Source: a virus. From it: DNA of 20,506 nucleotides. The notes beneath the pieces were generated by a model. The model saw only the letters and a list, made by a program, of their open reading frames with translations. It had not been told where the DNA came from and made no database searches. The stretch spans positions 1 to 20,506 of the IMG/VR virus record IMGVR_UViG_3300025138_000491; one strand, given 5' to 3'. How positions within the stretch are numbered: position 1 is the first letter of the stretch; each line of letters opens with the position of its first letter. Positions 3,552 through 20,506 of this stretch are shown here, one piece after another. A program made the translations under genes and the position numbers.

Positions 3552-3898
3552 TACTTTTCCTCCATCTGTATACTGGTCTTCTTGCTCTCAGCCTTTGCTG
3601 AATAAGCATTAAACCCCATGAAAGCTGCAACCACTCCAGAGGCTGCTATGACATATACACTTGCTATATCTGTTATTAAACTTGCCGCTTTGTCAAATCC
3701 AAGCACCGAAGCAAGCAAGATGATGAACGGGTAGATCAACATTCCCATAAGAGCAAAGCCTGTAAAACGTCGCTCTGCATTACGCTTAAGATCACGATCA
3801 ATCATTTCTAATCGACGGTCTTCTAAGGCTATCTTATTCCACTCGCCGCGTTCTATAACGCCGTTGTTGTTAAGATCTACTTTATCAAACTCTGTCAT
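3551..3898 (-). CDS. EF-hand-containing membrane protein
   Basis: 115 residues. Near the N-terminus is a canonical 12-residue EF-hand calcium loop, DLNNNGVIERGE (8-19), with Asp1, Asn3, Asn5, Gly6, Ile8, Glu9 and Glu12 in the expected places. A charged helix rich in Arg, Asp and Glu follows (27-45), then two transmembrane helices (about 46-67 and 76-97) and a polar tail. Only one EF-hand is visible, so pairing would need dimerisation. It lies directly upstream of the holin and is coupled to a 37-aa gene through ATGA. A calcium-responsive role in membrane or lysis timing is conjecture. The membrane topology and loop are seen directly. Confidence 0.75.
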   Translation of the reverse strand: MTEFDKVDLNNNGVIERGEWNKIALEDRRLEMIDRDLKRNAERRFTGFALMGMLIYPFIILLASVLGFDKAASLITDIASVYVIAASGVVAAFMGFNAYSAKAESKKTSIQMEEK

Positions 3899-4658: not shown

Positions 4659-7132
4659 TAACCACCTCGTTGCATCTTTTGACGCTGAACTTCTATACGT
4701 TCACGATTAGTGTCGTTTCTTTGATCTGCTATTTCTTCTATGCTTTCAATTCTAGCGGAATCAGTAGTAGCCCGTTGCTGCATCTTCTGCATCTCTAGAT
4801 CAATCTGCGCTGCGTCATCTAACGATTTACGCTGCATGTCTTGTTGTTTTACACCAAGTTCCTGCATTCTAATTTGTACAAGTGGATCTTTCATTGGATC
4901 CTCTCCTTGTGGCGTAATCTTCGGCATAAGCTCGTTCATCAACTGCATCTCCTGTAGAGCTACTGCTTTCTCTAGCTCCTCTGGGTTTTGCATCTGCTGC
5001 TGAACTTCCATGATCTGTTGTTGTGCAGCCTGTGGCTCAAGTGCACCAGACTGAGCCATAAGTTGAACCTGAGAGATAAGTCCTTGGATCTCCGTTACAA
5101 CCATCTCACGAGCTTTCTTAGATATATGTTCTTGAATATGTCCCATCAATATCCCCATGACTTGTGGAGAGGTCATAACAATAGGAGTCTTCATAAACAT
5201 AACATGCAGTTCGATATGAGCGTCATGATCCTGACCGTCAAAGGCCATCAATAACTCCCCAGTCAAGGCACGAGCATTCTCAATAAGAGGGTCTAATGGC
5301 TGTGGCTGTGGTGGGGGAGGTAATATCTCGTCAATGTTTTGAACCTCGAGAGCCTGATACATACGACGAAACGCTGCGTGTAGATTGTGTACTTGTGGAT
5401 TAGACTGAGCAAGTTGTAGCTGCGTCTGTGCCAATGTTACCCTTTGTGCCATAGAAAAGATATTTGGATCACTAACAGGAACCACATCAACACGACCATC
5501 AAAGTCAGAGGCCATAACTTTACGGTCCCCTCCTGCCACATCATACGGATATTCCTGCGGTAGATTATCTCTAAAGATCCTAGCTAGTATACGGAACTCG
5601 TTCTTCTGAGCGTAGTGAAGACGCTTGTGAATAGCAGACATGACTTTCATACCACGTTCCAATAGAGCCACTGTAGTGCCTACAGGAGCCTCCTGGTTCA
5701 TGTTTGACGTTTGTTGATCGGCTAGTGATATAAACCGTCTTCCGTTATCTATGAGGGATCCTAGCAACTGTGCAAGTGTACCCGAAGGTTCCTTATACGG
5801 AAGCGGTATAAGTGCGTCCCTTATGTTGCCCCCAGGTGCATCAATGTCCCGCCACTCACCCGGCTGTAACGGCTCGTCATCATTACGAACCCTCACGCCT
5901 CTGGCCTTGAATCCTGCCGGGAGGTTTGCAAGTGTACCCGCATCGATTAACTGTCGAAGGATACTCGTTGCCGCACGACCAAGACCACCAATCATGTGGA
6001 TCAGACCAAAGCCATAAAAGCCTAGACCTGGCATAAACTTGTAGTGAACAAAATATTGTTGCTTCTTTGCTAGATCAGCACCCTCCTCAAAGTTACGTCG
6101 AACCGCAAGAACCTTCCCTGATCCCTCGTCTATCGTAACAATGTATGGCAGAGCTATACCTGTGGGTTCTCCATCTGGAGCTATGTCCTCAAACCCTTCA
6201 AGGTCTAAATCCACGTGCATCTCCAGTATCGTGTACACATCATCTGTATATCCACGAGAAGTTCCTTGTATCTCATCGATCTTCTGTCGTACTTCGTTTT
6301 CTTCGTCGTCGTTCTTACTTAACTCTACATCCCTGTAGAATCCTGCAATCTGCATTTTACGAACTTCATTAGCGTCTATACGCAGAACATGTGTAACCCG
6401 TGCAGCCGTCTGTAGATCAGAAGCTGCGTAAGATACTACTAAATCCTGTGCAGGAACAAACTTAGAAACAGGTCTTTGTTTCGCTTCGTCGAAATAAACC
6501 TTCTTAAAACAAGATCCAGACAACGGTAAATAAAACAACAACTGATCCATATCAGGGTCAAATTCTTCCATGACCTCTGTAATCTGGTAGTTCATAAAGT
6601 CTTTCACACGAGAAGCCTGCTCCTCACGGGTTGCATCTTGCAAACCAAGAACCTGTGTCTGAACAGGACCACCCGCAGGTAGCATTTCTTTGTATGCCTG
6701 CGCCTGAAACTGAGTTACGCTTTCTGAAATTAACGGGTGCGTGACCCCAGAAGCTCCTTCAAACGGCTGACTACGCTCCTCATACTTGACACCAAGCTGA
6801 TCCAAACCTTTTGTATAAGTCTCTTCCCACTCAGAACGAGATTCCATATCATCCTCATAGGAGCCCCTAAGATCCGATGAAATTTCTCCAAGATACGCTT
6901 CATCTAAAAACTCCGCTAAATTATCCGTGTGACTGGGTTCAGGTATAGCAGCTTCCTCTGCGGCTATCATGTCTGCCAAACTTTGCACTATCGCTCCGCC
7001 CTGTCCATCGCTTATAACTTCCGCCCCACCAGTAAAGTCTTGGGGCTGTGGCACAGATACATCAACAGACGTTGCGTCTGCTGCCATGTCTTCGGGTCTA
7101 ATCCCTGAATCTACAAGTGGTGGCAATGCCAT
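4658..7132 (-). CDS. Portal protein
   Basis: 824 residues, in the size range of P22-like portals. The signature block is at 88-156: LRGSYEDDMESRSEWEETY, then a GVKYEERSQPFEGASGVTHP segment and QAQAYKEMLPAGGP. A dodecameric portal forms the DNA gate at one head vertex, docks terminase during packaging and later the tail. The last 130 residues are very rich in Gln and Met with coiled-coil character, consistent with a barrel or C-terminal extension into the capsid. Order terminase, portal, then downstream genes is classical. The ATG overlaps the terminase stop as TAATG (7132). Confidence 0.88.
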   Translation of the reverse strand: MALPPLVDSGIRPEDMAADATSVDVSVPQPQDFTGGAEVISDGQGGAIVQSLADMIAAEEAAIPEPSHTDNLAEFLDEAYLGEISSDLRGSYEDDMESRSEWEETYTKGLDQLGVKYEERSQPFEGASGVTHPLISESVTQFQAQAYKEMLPAGGPVQTQVLGLQDATREEQASRVKDFMNYQITEVMEEFDPDMDQLLFYLPLSGSCFKKVYFDEAKQRPVSKFVPAQDLVVSYAASDLQTAARVTHVLRIDANEVRKMQIAGFYRDVELSKNDDEENEVRQKIDEIQGTSRGYTDDVYTILEMHVDLDLEGFEDIAPDGEPTGIALPYIVTIDEGSGKVLAVRRNFEEGADLAKKQQYFVHYKFMPGLGFYGFGLIHMIGGLGRAATSILRQLIDAGTLANLPAGFKARGVRVRNDDEPLQPGEWRDIDAPGGNIRDALIPLPYKEPSGTLAQLLGSLIDNGRRFISLADQQTSNMNQEAPVGTTVALLERGMKVMSAIHKRLHYAQKNEFRILARIFRDNLPQEYPYDVAGGDRKVMASDFDGRVDVVPVSDPNIFSMAQRVTLAQTQLQLAQSNPQVHNLHAAFRRMYQALEVQNIDEILPPPPQPQPLDPLIENARALTGELLMAFDGQDHDAHIELHVMFMKTPIVMTSPQVMGILMGHIQEHISKKAREMVVTEIQGLISQVQLMAQSGALEPQAAQQQIMEVQQQMQNPEELEKAVALQEMQLMNELMPKITPQGEDPMKDPLVQIRMQELGVKQQDMQRKSLDDAAQIDLEMQKMQQRATTDSARIESIEEIADQRNDTNRERIEVQRQKMQRGG

Positions 7133-8595
7133 TAGTAATACTCCCGTCTAGGACGATACTCGTCAATTTCTTCGTTCTCGCCGTGTAAGGAAATAAACCC
7201 ACCCTGACGAAAACGCATTAATGCTAGTGTCATGCTATCACAAAAGTCATCATGATCGCCATTAGGAAATGACACTACCTCTTCAATTACCTCATCTGCA
7301 AACTTTTTATCACTTGGTGCCCATACTACACCCGCTTCAAACAATGGCGCAACCATGTGCATTCTAGTTATTTTATCTTTTCCTTTGCCCGGAGAGAAGC
7401 CCAAAGCAGGTATTCCACGTAAACGTAACTCGTCAATTAAGGGTGTACCCGTCGCTTTTGCCTCTACAATCACCATGTCAGGCTCCCAATACTCGTGCTC
7501 ATCATAAGCAATCTCTTTTAATTCGGGGAAATTCCAACGACCTCGCCGTGCATCCATAAGAATTAAGTTATCTGCCCCACCTTCATCTGGTTCAAACACC
7601 CCCCAAGTCGTAATCGCGCTGTAATCCGCTGATTCTTTCTTGGAAAACGCCGTATCATACGACTGAATAATGTATTTAATAGGAGGAATAGACTCTTTTT
7701 CCCAAGATTGCCACCATTCTCTCTTAACTATGGCCGATTCGGACGTAGTTGGCGTTTGTTGCCACTGTGCATTCCATTTTCCTACAGGTAACGACGCTTT
7801 TATACCCAGTAAAGCGTCTTTCTCCCAGAACTCAGGCCATAATGGGTCATCTGACGGTAAAATCGCAGGAAATTCCACCACTTCCCACTGATCTGCCATG
7901 ACATCACTGCCCTGTGCCGCTATCAAACGGCCTGTCAAGTCCTTTTTACCCCATCGAGTCATAACAATTATGATTGCACCACCCGGTTGAAGCCTCTGAC
8001 GAGGTCCAGAAGTGTACCATTCATACGCATTGTCGAATGCACTCTCGCTCATAGCGTCTTGTTCCGAGTGTGGATCGTCAATAACAAACAAATCCGCACC
8101 ACGACCAGTCACCGCAGCACCTACCCCCGCCGCGAAGTACTCTCCGCCTTTGTCTGTACCCCACTTACCTGCACCTTTGTTGTCTTCTTTAAGGTGAGTA
8201 TTCGGAAAAATCTCTTTATAAGCCGGATCATCAATCAAGTCCCTCACTTTTCTACCAAAACGAACAGCTAACTCAGTATTGTGAGTAGCCTGAATAATCT
8301 TTAACTTAGGGTTTCTACCCAAAAACCATGCAGGCATCAAGAAACTAGCAAACTCAGACTTAGAATGACGAGGAGGCATGTTAATGATCAAACGTTTTAA
8401 CTTACCCTGCGCCACTTGCTCAAGCTTTTCCGCAATAACTCGATGGTGCCTACCCTCAATAAAGTTCTCATACACATGATGCGCAAAGGGCATGAAATAA
8501 TCTTGCGCTTTTTCCCTCAAATCTAATGTTTTCTTAGCCTCAGTCAGTGCTAAGATTTCTTTTAACGCTTCTTCAGGAAGTGTTTGTAGATTCAT
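7132..8595 (-). CDS. terL: Terminase large subunit (packaging ATPase and nuclease)
   Basis: 487 residues. The ATPase domain has a Walker A-like MPPRHSKSE (73-81), Walker B ADLFVIDDP (167-175) and a motif III-like IIIVMTRW (208-215). The RNase H-fold nuclease has its acidic residues in SYDTAFSKK (Asp314 region), MVIVEAKATG (Glu378) and the final HDDFCDSMTLAL (Asp453). TerL pumps DNA into the prohead through the portal and cuts concatemers. Its start overlaps the upstream gene as ATGA, and its stop overlaps the portal gene. The matching small subunit is not adjacent but encoded about 7.3 kb away at 15875-16447. Confidence 0.95.
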   Translation of the reverse strand: MNLQTLPEEALKEILALTEAKKTLDLREKAQDYFMPFAHHVYENFIEGRHHRVIAEKLEQVAQGKLKRLIINMPPRHSKSEFASFLMPAWFLGRNPKLKIIQATHNTELAVRFGRKVRDLIDDPAYKEIFPNTHLKEDNKGAGKWGTDKGGEYFAAGVGAAVTGRGADLFVIDDPHSEQDAMSESAFDNAYEWYTSGPRQRLQPGGAIIIVMTRWGKKDLTGRLIAAQGSDVMADQWEVVEFPAILPSDDPLWPEFWEKDALLGIKASLPVGKWNAQWQQTPTTSESAIVKREWWQSWEKESIPPIKYIIQSYDTAFSKKESADYSAITTWGVFEPDEGGADNLILMDARRGRWNFPELKEIAYDEHEYWEPDMVIVEAKATGTPLIDELRLRGIPALGFSPGKGKDKITRMHMVAPLFEAGVVWAPSDKKFADEVIEEVVSFPNGDHDDFCDSMTLALMRFRQGGFISLHGENEEIDEYRPRREYY

Positions 8596-19754: not shown

Positions 19755-20267
19755 ATGAACCAGAGAATTAGTTTAGTACGTTTAGCGGTGGAGAGAGCGT
19801 GGGCAGATGCTGCCAATGCAACCGAAGCCAAGGACAGGTATCTTGAGATGCTCAAGACGGATGAAGCGTTGCGGACGGAGGCAACGGCTCGATACTTGGA
19901 GAAGATCGCACATTGGGACACGGTTGTACGTCCGACGTTGGATCGTCATTTGTTCAAGAAGCACGTTCTGAGCAAGGGAGAGAAATCGACACCGAATGTA
20001 TCGCGTAAGAACACGATGAAGATGTATGCGAAAGATTTGTTTGAGACACTCAGGTTGCCTGAGACAGGTGTGAAGCTTGGGGAGGCAACTCGTCAGGACT
20101 TGGATAAGGCTATATCGTTTGAGAAGTCTAGGGCGCAGCATCATACGCACCAACAGAGTTTTTGGTCCTCGATACAGAAGCGTCTTAAAAAAGACGATGC
20201 AGTGGTCAAGGATGTTTGGACACCAGTAGAGGTGGAGCAAGCTTACGAGGAGATACTGAACAAATGA
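19755..20267 (+). CDS. Helical early protein (170 aa), unknown
   Basis: 170 residues from ATG 19755, with AGGAGG about 8 nt upstream. The first 65 residues form a long helix (LVRLAVERAWADAANATEAK, then RTEATARYLEKIAHWD) with coiled-coil character. The centre is basic (HLFKKHVLSKGEKSTPNVSRK), and two further helices follow (MYAKDLFETLRL, DKAISFEKSRAQHH). No known motif. It is the last gene before the tandem hairpin array, and its stop TGA shares its A with the first base of the array repeat. Confidence 0.72.
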   Translation: MNQRISLVRLAVERAWADAANATEAKDRYLEMLKTDEALRTEATARYLEKIAHWDTVVRPTLDRHLFKKHVLSKGEKSTPNVSRKNTMKMYAKDLFETLRLPETGVKLGEATRQDLDKAISFEKSRAQHHTHQQSFWSSIQKRLKKDDAVVKDVWTPVEVEQAYEEILNK

Positions 20268-20274
20268 TTAGTTA

Positions 20275-20322
20275 TGGGAGCCGTCATGACTGCGCAGCAA
20301 TGCCCATGGAGGGTCGCTCCCA
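20275..20322 (+). ncRNA. Hairpin A1
   Basis: Outer stem TGGGAGC (20275-20281) pairs with GCTCCCA (20316-20322). Inside, CATG (20285-20288) can pair with CATG (20305-20308), and the apex reads GCA-GCAA-TGC (20294-20303), a 3-bp stem with a GNRA tetraloop. Confidence 0.6.
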
Positions 20323-20329
20323 CCAGTTA

Positions 20330-20381
20330 GGGGAGGGTCAATTATCCACCACAGGAATGTCAGGTGTGGTCCACCCTCCTC
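20330..20381 (+). ncRNA. Hairpin B1
   Basis: Outer stem GGGGAGGGT (20330-20338) pairs with 20373-20381, nine pairs with one G-U. Inside, CACC pairs with GGTG, and the apex is ACA-GGAA-TGT (20351-20360), a GNRA tetraloop on a stem whose outer pair is A-U instead of G-C. Confidence 0.6.
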
Positions 20382-20391
20382 TATTAGTTTA

Positions 20392-20439
20392 TGGGAGCCA
20401 AGGATCAAACGCAGAAATGCCAATGCGCTACCGCTCTCA
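20392..20439 (+). ncRNA. Hairpin A2
   Basis: Outer stem TGGGAGC (20392-20398) pairs with GCTCTCA (20433-20439), one G-U replacing a G-C of A1. The apex is GCA-GAAA-TGC (20411-20420). The 17-mer CGCAGAAATGCCAATGC (20410-20426) is identical in B2. Confidence 0.6.
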
Positions 20440-20440
20440 A

Positions 20441-20492
20441 GGGGAGGGTCAGACTATGCACGCAGAAATGCCAATGCCGAATTGCCCTTCCC
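20441..20492 (+). ncRNA. Hairpin B2
   Basis: Outer stem GGGGAGGGT (20441-20449) pairs with GCCCTTCCC (20484-20492), nine pairs including two G-U. The apex is GCA-GAAA-TGC (20462-20471), identical to A2. Confidence 0.6.
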
Positions 20493-20506
20493 GATTAGTT
20501 TATGGG

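Follow-up and report, generated by a model that had tools for sequence, protein, structure and literature searches.

Introduction

What are the tandem stem-loops with which a 20,506-base contig of a tailed phage breaks off, and what might they do? The contig is IMG/VR record IMGVR_UViG_3300025138_000491, and the stretch analysed here, called the window, spans all of it. A first-pass annotation, made from the letters alone, saw four hairpins of two alternating types and knew of no standard phage element of this form. That last statement has been overtaken by the 2025 description of TIGR-Tas systems (Faure et al. 2025, PMC12045711), according to which stem-loop TIGR arrays are tandem stem-loops with palindromic variable stems replacing the edge repeats, two 8-12-nt spacers and box C/D motifs. 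Such arrays are placed in two clades; the TasA example, from a Peromyscus leucopus gut contig, comprises 13 units, and its RNA is processed to individual hairpins; TasA itself is a solo-Nop protein (PMC12045711). The same paper leaves open the targets of the guides, the purpose of a nuclease-less TasA, and the origin and change of arrays.

Sequence comparison identifies the array, which belongs to a lineage of marine phages, as a TIGR array of the stem-loop type, and this identification is well supported. The whole reading, in which the array would supply tigRNAs to a nuclease-less TasA and probably guide DNA binding without cutting, is in our judgement very probable. The phage group offers 44 distinct related arrays, which keep one gene order and vary chiefly in the guides; guide turnover can therefore be measured directly. 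Close relatives carry largely different guides, which makes what the guides aim at a testable question. Among the literature matches listed, which did not extend to preprints, there was no other report of such arrays in marine phages.

The array in the window

The terminase of the window (7132-8595), which has at least 599 relatives in IMG/VR, is closest among INPHARED entries to those of 023Pt_psg01 (61.6% identity), DSL-LC04 (60.5%), HTVC027P (58.2%) and HTVC023P (52.1%), the last two being Pelagibacter phages. Leftward and rightward gene blocks converge near 13 kb. The last gene of the rightward (early) block, at 19755-20267 on the + strand, is an open reading frame for a predicted all-helical protein of 170 amino acids, which we call up170. 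It is followed directly by the array (20268-20506, + strand), with four complete units and the start of a fifth. The contig end falls inside the array, which may itself have halted assembly, and no tas gene lies within the window.

The four complete units are tandem stem-loops of about 50 nt (20275-20492, all on the + strand). Unit 1 (A1, 20275-20322) pairs TGGGAGC (20275-20281) with GCTCCCA (20316-20322) around spacer A (20284-20292), a cap (20293-20305) and spacer B (20306-20314). Unit 2 (B1, 20330-20381) pairs GGGGAGGGT (20330-20338) with ACCCTCCTC (20373-20381), enclosing spacer A (20341-20349), cap (20350-20362) and spacer B (20363-20371). Unit 3 (A2, 20392-20439) has TGGGAGC (20392-20398) opposite GCTCTCA (20433-20439), with spacer A at 20401-20409, cap at 20410-20422 and spacer B at 20423-20431. 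Unit 4 (B2, 20441-20492) again uses GGGGAGGGT (20441-20449), here with GCCCTTCCC (20484-20492) as its partner, and its spacer A, cap and spacer B lie at 20452-20460, 20461-20473 and 20474-20482. A linker and the first 5' stem bases of unit 5 follow (ATTAGTTTATGGG, 20494-20506, + strand), cut by the contig end. The caps start at 20293, 20350, 20410 and 20461, giving spacings of 57, 60 and 51 and composite periods of 117 and 111. The four hairpins, their A-type and B-type stems, and the run off the right edge are thus as the first-pass annotation had described them.

A unit finder was built from the observed unit anatomy, and its minus-strand echoes were dropped. On the + strand of the window it returned these four units and one weak match at 3748 (0-based), which is taken as chance. 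After mononucleotide shuffling of loci, the finder gave 13 matches on one strand of 484 kb. On 80 fetched terminase loci, reaching up to 10 kb from the terminase, it found no array.

Searches for known elements were negative within their scope. An Rfam search of 20100-20506 gave no match up to E 5, box C/D families included, and blastn of the array against INPHARED gave nothing. A tRNA or tmRNA array was rejected on ARAGORN, which found 0 such genes in the window and none in 35 stretches of relatives. A CRISPR array was likewise rejected: Tandem Repeats Finder has no entry over 20267-20506, there being no constant direct repeats, and the outer stems vary among units.

Related loci and gene order

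Related contigs were fetched with the linker pattern and the up170 gene. In these the array continues and is followed by a gene of about 234-245 amino acids, here called tas. A search with this gene retrieved 45 viral loci and a second one with its alignment 55, mostly on contigs common to both. We examined 59 loci, which are not independent (L016 and L021 are one contig). An up170 homologue precedes the array in 53 of the 59, the other six beginning inside the array or tas. The tas gene is present in 57, the window and L019 ending before it. At least three units lie beside tas or up170 in 56 loci; the remaining three start inside tas or no more than 50 bases from it. Because the window's contig stops within the array, its own tas gene is deduced from relatives. 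It would be expected past the contig end, as in L016, where tasA occupies 6111-6848 and whose contig matches the window at 82-97% identity in blastn pieces.

The array set holds 52 arrays, of which 44 are distinct and have at least four units; arrays with fewer units and repeated arrays were dropped. Counting truncated arrays, 40 of the 44 hold 6-14 units and 37 hold 6 to 12. In relatives, arrays reach a maximum of 14 units and, where complete, end at the tas gene.

No relatives were found in bacterial genomes with two peptide patterns, and none in plasmids. The up170 protein has no match in PDB sequences or INPHARED at the limits used, and its predicted structure (mean pLDDT 74.7) has a best Foldseek match of only E 1.8. 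In L020 the tas match ends after residue 62, from about 6352, and other sequence follows; this contig is possibly chimeric. L030 was left out of protein alignments.

Anatomy of the units

The window and its relatives supplied 257 distinct units, selected on seven cap positions and on having a neighbouring unit, with neither stem taken into account. The seven cap letters are therefore constant by selection; the choice did not draw on the stems, the edge motifs or the remaining cap pairs. The gapless consensus reads 5' stem, YCA, 9-nt spacer, CRC-A-GNRA-U-GYCA cap, 9-nt spacer, CRC, 3' stem. The two 9-nt stretches, of mixed composition, stand at fixed places in the 257 units.

The outer stem is kept as pairing while its sequence changes, as the first-pass annotation had proposed from four units. 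Pairs 1-6 form in 92, 95, 97, 99, 97 and 81% of the 257 units, against shuffled means of 78, 92, 69, 85, 70 and 47%. Pair 2 is a nearly invariant G-C and hence carries little information, slid versions reaching similar values there; past the sixth pair, formation falls to 32-48%. The outermost cap pair forms in 94% (G-C in 192, G-T in 25 and A-T in 24 of 257). In predicted folds of 150 of 285 units, the outer stem has probability 0.92, the cap pairs 0.60, and spacer bases are unpaired at 0.58. Spacer A and spacer B show no excess of pairing with each other in the hairpin register (3.18 against 3.21 +- 0.08 shuffled), and values at shift +1 (3.00 against 2.82 +- 0.07) and shift +2 (2.32 against 2.46 +- 0.07) lie slightly above and slightly below shuffled.

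Each spacer is flanked by similar motifs. At the edge, where the positions are unselected, YCA appears as C/T 95%, C 97% and A 79%, and CRC as C 91%, G/A 94% and C 95%. In the cap, YCA appears as C/T 99%, C (selected) and A 79%, and CRC as C (selected), G/A 95% and C 99%. This likeness of edge and cap is what one would predict for a symmetric protein dimer that binds the two. In TIGR arrays at large, the box motifs may diverge and yet almost always covary between edge and loop (PMC12045711).

Strict A/B alternation is a local feature; the two alternating hairpin types fit a weak general trend. Compared with permuted arrays, 5' stems of adjacent units resemble each other less (0.535 against 0.564 +- 0.010; 0 of 500 permutations as low), those two units apart are about as similar as expected, and those four apart are more alike (0.639 against 0.570 +- 0.013; 0 of 500 as high); the arrays are related, so these figures are not independent evidence. 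Unlike neighbouring stems could prevent mispairing between neighbours.

A 5' stem reading CAGAGG marks the final unit, shortly before the tasA start, in 39 of 43 arrays, and occurs in 5 of the 343 units elsewhere. In L016 the stem of this final unit (around 6063) reads GAGAGG; in L026 the final unit lies around 3951. The L016 array ends a few bases 5' of the likely ribosome-binding site, and our guess is that TasA regulates its own translation at the last unit.

The adjacent Tas-like protein

Searching the PDB by phmmer with the L016 product (6111-6845) gave a match to 9mty_A, a chain of 331 aa, at E 6.6e-12; the aligned part spans residues 68-229. A profile of 17 relatives had 9mty_A as its sole PDB match at E<=1 (E 1.5e-11), and a DGHAHNRA stretch is common to both. 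The 9MTY entry is the deposited model of the TasR structure; TasR is given as 331 residues long, with its RuvC nuclease at the N-terminal end (PMC12045711). The phage protein aligns with the later (Nop) part of TasR only and is therefore, judged by homology, TasA-like, a Nop part without the nuclease. Pfam gave no Nop or Transposase_20 match for the tas product. The AlphaFold model of TasA (mean pLDDT 61.8) is too poor for confirmation of the fold, and Foldseek with this low-confidence model returned nothing at E 0.001, TasH standing third at E 0.12.

Comparison with known systems

The phage loci share with the stem-loop TIGR array of the Peromyscus leucopus contig the tandem stem-loops, the palindromic variable outer stem in place of an edge repeat (pairs formed in 81-99%), two short spacers (9+9 nt in the 257 units, within the 8-12-nt range) between box C- and box D-like motifs, and a solo-Nop-like Tas gene alongside, which is recognised by sequence in the relatives and is absent from the truncated window. 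They differ from that array in the cap, whose length is constant and which bears a GNRA tetraloop on 3 bp, in the YCA/CRC boxes, in the 9-nt spacers and in the presence of up170. The phages have one array between up170 and tasA, whereas the paper's Peromyscus leucopus example has three subarrays.

Dual-repeat TIGR systems (TasR, TasH) likewise have two 9-nt spacers, pseudosymmetric box C/D sites and a homologous protein (9mty_A). In contrast to them, the phage array has a variable stem and no constant edge repeat, its motifs are YCA/CRC where TasR uses CCA/UG, and its protein aligns to the later part of TasR only. IS110 bridge RNA shares the idea of a two-strand guide and a related RNA-binding domain; the phage loci differ in their many units and in having no Transposase_20 match. 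With archaeal and eukaryotic box C/D guide RNAs the array shares box C/D-like anchoring of guides and, through TasR homology, a Nop-type protein, but it has no box C/D consensus or Rfam match.

Alternative explanations

The first-pass annotation had the right object and offered several uses for it. That the array is a noncoding multi-hairpin RNA is supported by the comparison of units and loci. Its notion of a protein-binding array survives insofar as the adjoining gene encodes a relative of TasR, an RNA-binding Nop-domain protein; the DNA packaging or replication version is not supported, and neither is a decoy or sponge, because such elements would not need two hypervariable 9-nt stretches at fixed places in each unit. 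Tandem hairpins with a near-constant GNRA-type cap (the cap having been partly used for unit choice) are what a sponge RNA for a host RNA-binding protein might look like, but given these stretches and the TasR-related neighbour we regard it as very unlikely, and we prefer a guide-RNA array to either a sponge or a packaging site. Just as improbable are box C/D-type guides for RNA modification, acting on host or phage RNA rather than on DNA. Box C/D motifs read RUGAUGA and CUGA, and the unit consensus contains neither; Rfam, as noted, is silent. TIGR, IS110 and box C/D ribonucleoproteins do have a Nop domain and tandem-spacer layout in common, and TasR is described as not acting on RNA (PMC12045711).

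Guides of an IS110-like element, that is, bridge RNAs for recombination, would fit the match of the tas product to PHROG 4285 'transposase' (1.2e-16) and the label of 9mty_A as an IS110-type C-terminal domain protein. The match to only the later part of TasR, the absence of PF02371 (Transposase_20) from all six records searched at E<=1 (in a control, 12 of 14 genomes match, four above the cut-off) and the many units per array, where one bridge RNA would be expected, make this extremely unlikely. We give practically no credence to a repetitive protein-coding stretch with the hairpins as a by-product. A long frame through the array, which the first-pass annotation had held to speak against an RNA, is open in some loci (193 codons in L016) and not in others. 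Stops occur in all three frames in L026 (5/7/9), L036 (3/1/4), L043 (4/4/3) and L047 (6/3/4), which already contradicts the coding reading; the distance between units is in many cases not divisible by three, and stem changes are compensatory. The L016 frame (5462-6127, 221 aa), which spans the whole array, is taken as chance because it is not conserved in other loci.

Proposed mechanism

The unit anatomy, the covariation, the homology to Tas at sequence level, the constant order of the genes and the hypervariability of the guides are direct observations; transcription, processing, guide loading and DNA pairing are carried over by analogy from the TIGR-Tas paper (PMC12045711). Under the stem-loop TIGR reading, the array is most likely co-transcribed with the upstream gene and the downstream tasA gene, and the transcript would then be cut into tigRNAs of about 50 nt, one per hairpin. 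A TasA dimer would bind both pseudosymmetric box C/D sites (YCA, CRC), one at the outer stem and one at the GNRA cap, and would present the two 9-nt spacers, each of which would pair with one strand of adjacent DNA. Because a nuclease domain is missing from TasA, the likely action of the complex is to bind and bend DNA, not to cut it. Its effect during infection would be to hinder competing mobile DNA or to control genes. Competition between elements without cleavage is suggested for TasA in the paper (PMC12045711), and we extend that suggestion by analogy to this phage array.

Guide turnover

Guide sharing was compared across 44 loci by up170 distance, dropping locus pairs of unequal gene length; the pairs overlap and are not independent. 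Identical up170 genes (6 pairs) go with identical arrays. At distances up to 2% (7 pairs), none share half of the smaller array and the mean shared is 37%; at 2-3% (11 pairs), four share no guide pair (mean 17%); at 3-4% (41 pairs), 18 share none and one shares half or more (mean 13%). The window and L016, 1.8% apart in up170, share one of four units exactly, and L035 and L043, 3.4% apart, share 0 (arrays of 7 and 9). L038 and L042 are an exception, sharing six of eight units at 3.8%.

In a group of 11 loci (up170 distance 1.8-6.0%, mean 4.6%), 284 same-register unit pairs differ at 5.5% of scaffold and 48% of spacer positions. Among the 240 pairs with scaffold differing by at most 10%, spacers are identical in 34, differ at 1-5 of 18 positions in 38, and differ at 9 or more of 18 in 139. 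This could come from an adaptation-like process, perhaps involving up170, that exchanges both 9-nt spacers and keeps the scaffold, so that relatives aim TasA at different DNA; we consider it unlikely. Recombination that draws on a common pool of units with alike scaffolds could explain the pattern as well as active replacement; in addition, the scaffold is under structural constraint and the spacers are not. If adaptation-like turnover were true, it would be a second natural system of fast guide renewal beside CRISPR, located in a phage. Codon-like drift of spacers, some variant sets looking synonymous by eye, was dropped because both tests gave low z (-0.3 to 1.95, and -1.1 to 0.8, the second leaving out spacer clusters outside 2-8 members).

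Search for targets

Target pairing has been tested for TasR and TasH, and genuine TIGR targets are called difficult to identify (PMC12045711). We predicted a target as spacer A plus the reverse complement of spacer B with a gap of 0-2, the orientation being derived from statements on 3' overhangs and the C-5 rule in the same paper (PMC12045711). The DNA searched is small against what the phage could meet. Own and related loci totalling 1.2 Mb, scanned in four orientations with gaps from -1 to 3, showed no excess of matches for 160 sampled of 243 distinct pairs. For the orientation predicted above, three pairs matched at 17 of 18 and 24 at 16, against 0 and 21 in one shuffle, and the other orientations were alike.

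With 285 pairs, 140 kb of three related phages gave one match at 17 and ten at 16, against none and four in a single shuffle. The two other sets searched beside this subset gave four 18/18 matches, attributed to the loci having been fetched with the same guide patterns. In 0.92 Mb of relatives (80 terminase loci and stretches of HTVC023P, HTVC027P, DSL-LC04 and psg01) the 140-kb hint vanished, with three at 17 and 27 at 16, against 0-3 and 19-33 in five shuffles.

The guide TTGTTACCA/ATCATAGAT had seven matches in viral contigs, two with the same flanks and the rest in unrelated surroundings. In genomes it had 25 matches, ten of them in flavobacteria with one IYDFGNN motif in common and a 2-base gap (L168, L170, L173, L174, L176, L181, L183, L185, L187 and L188); the guide is common to several arrays, and the motif is presumably penicillin-binding-protein-like. 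A second guide from the same arrays had 20 matches in those ten genomes at up to three mismatches, all with exactly three, against nine for a reversed control and about 25 estimated by chance. The 25 genome matches, those with the IYDFGNN motif included, are probably chance. Another guide had ten matches in viral contigs, none convincing, among which two pairs fall in the same gene.

A relative in a Rhizobium phage

The cultured and only distantly related Rhizobium phage RHph_X2_25 (L113, MW960032) encodes a Tas relative (31.5% identity), annotated as a hypothetical protein, amid stem-loops. Stem-loop TIGR-type units surround this gene at 5341-5722 and 6808-6990 and are absent from the listed features; similar units occur in L203-L206. 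Compared with the marine array, these loci have longer stems, a shorter cap and units on both sides of the gene, and up170 has no match in RHph_X2_25.

With the loop left free at 24-51 nt in RHph_X2_25 and L203-L206, 13 of 16 stems (at least 8 pairs, 6 of them G-C) close exactly 30 nt. A 30-nt finder, partly set to the motif, gave 16 candidates, mostly of the form CA, 9 nt, CGNAACCCA-like, 9 nt, C; the candidate at 3872 in L205 is probably spurious. Three phages isolated at that site were scanned over their first 50 kb with RHph_X2_25-type guides, and the best raw scores were 15/18 (RHph_X3_2), 16/18 (RHph_X2_24) and 14/18 (RHph_X66); the best raw score in the 12.8 kb of L113 was 14 of 18. Since RHph_X2_25 is recorded from a Sinorhizobium americanum strain, it may offer a laboratory test.
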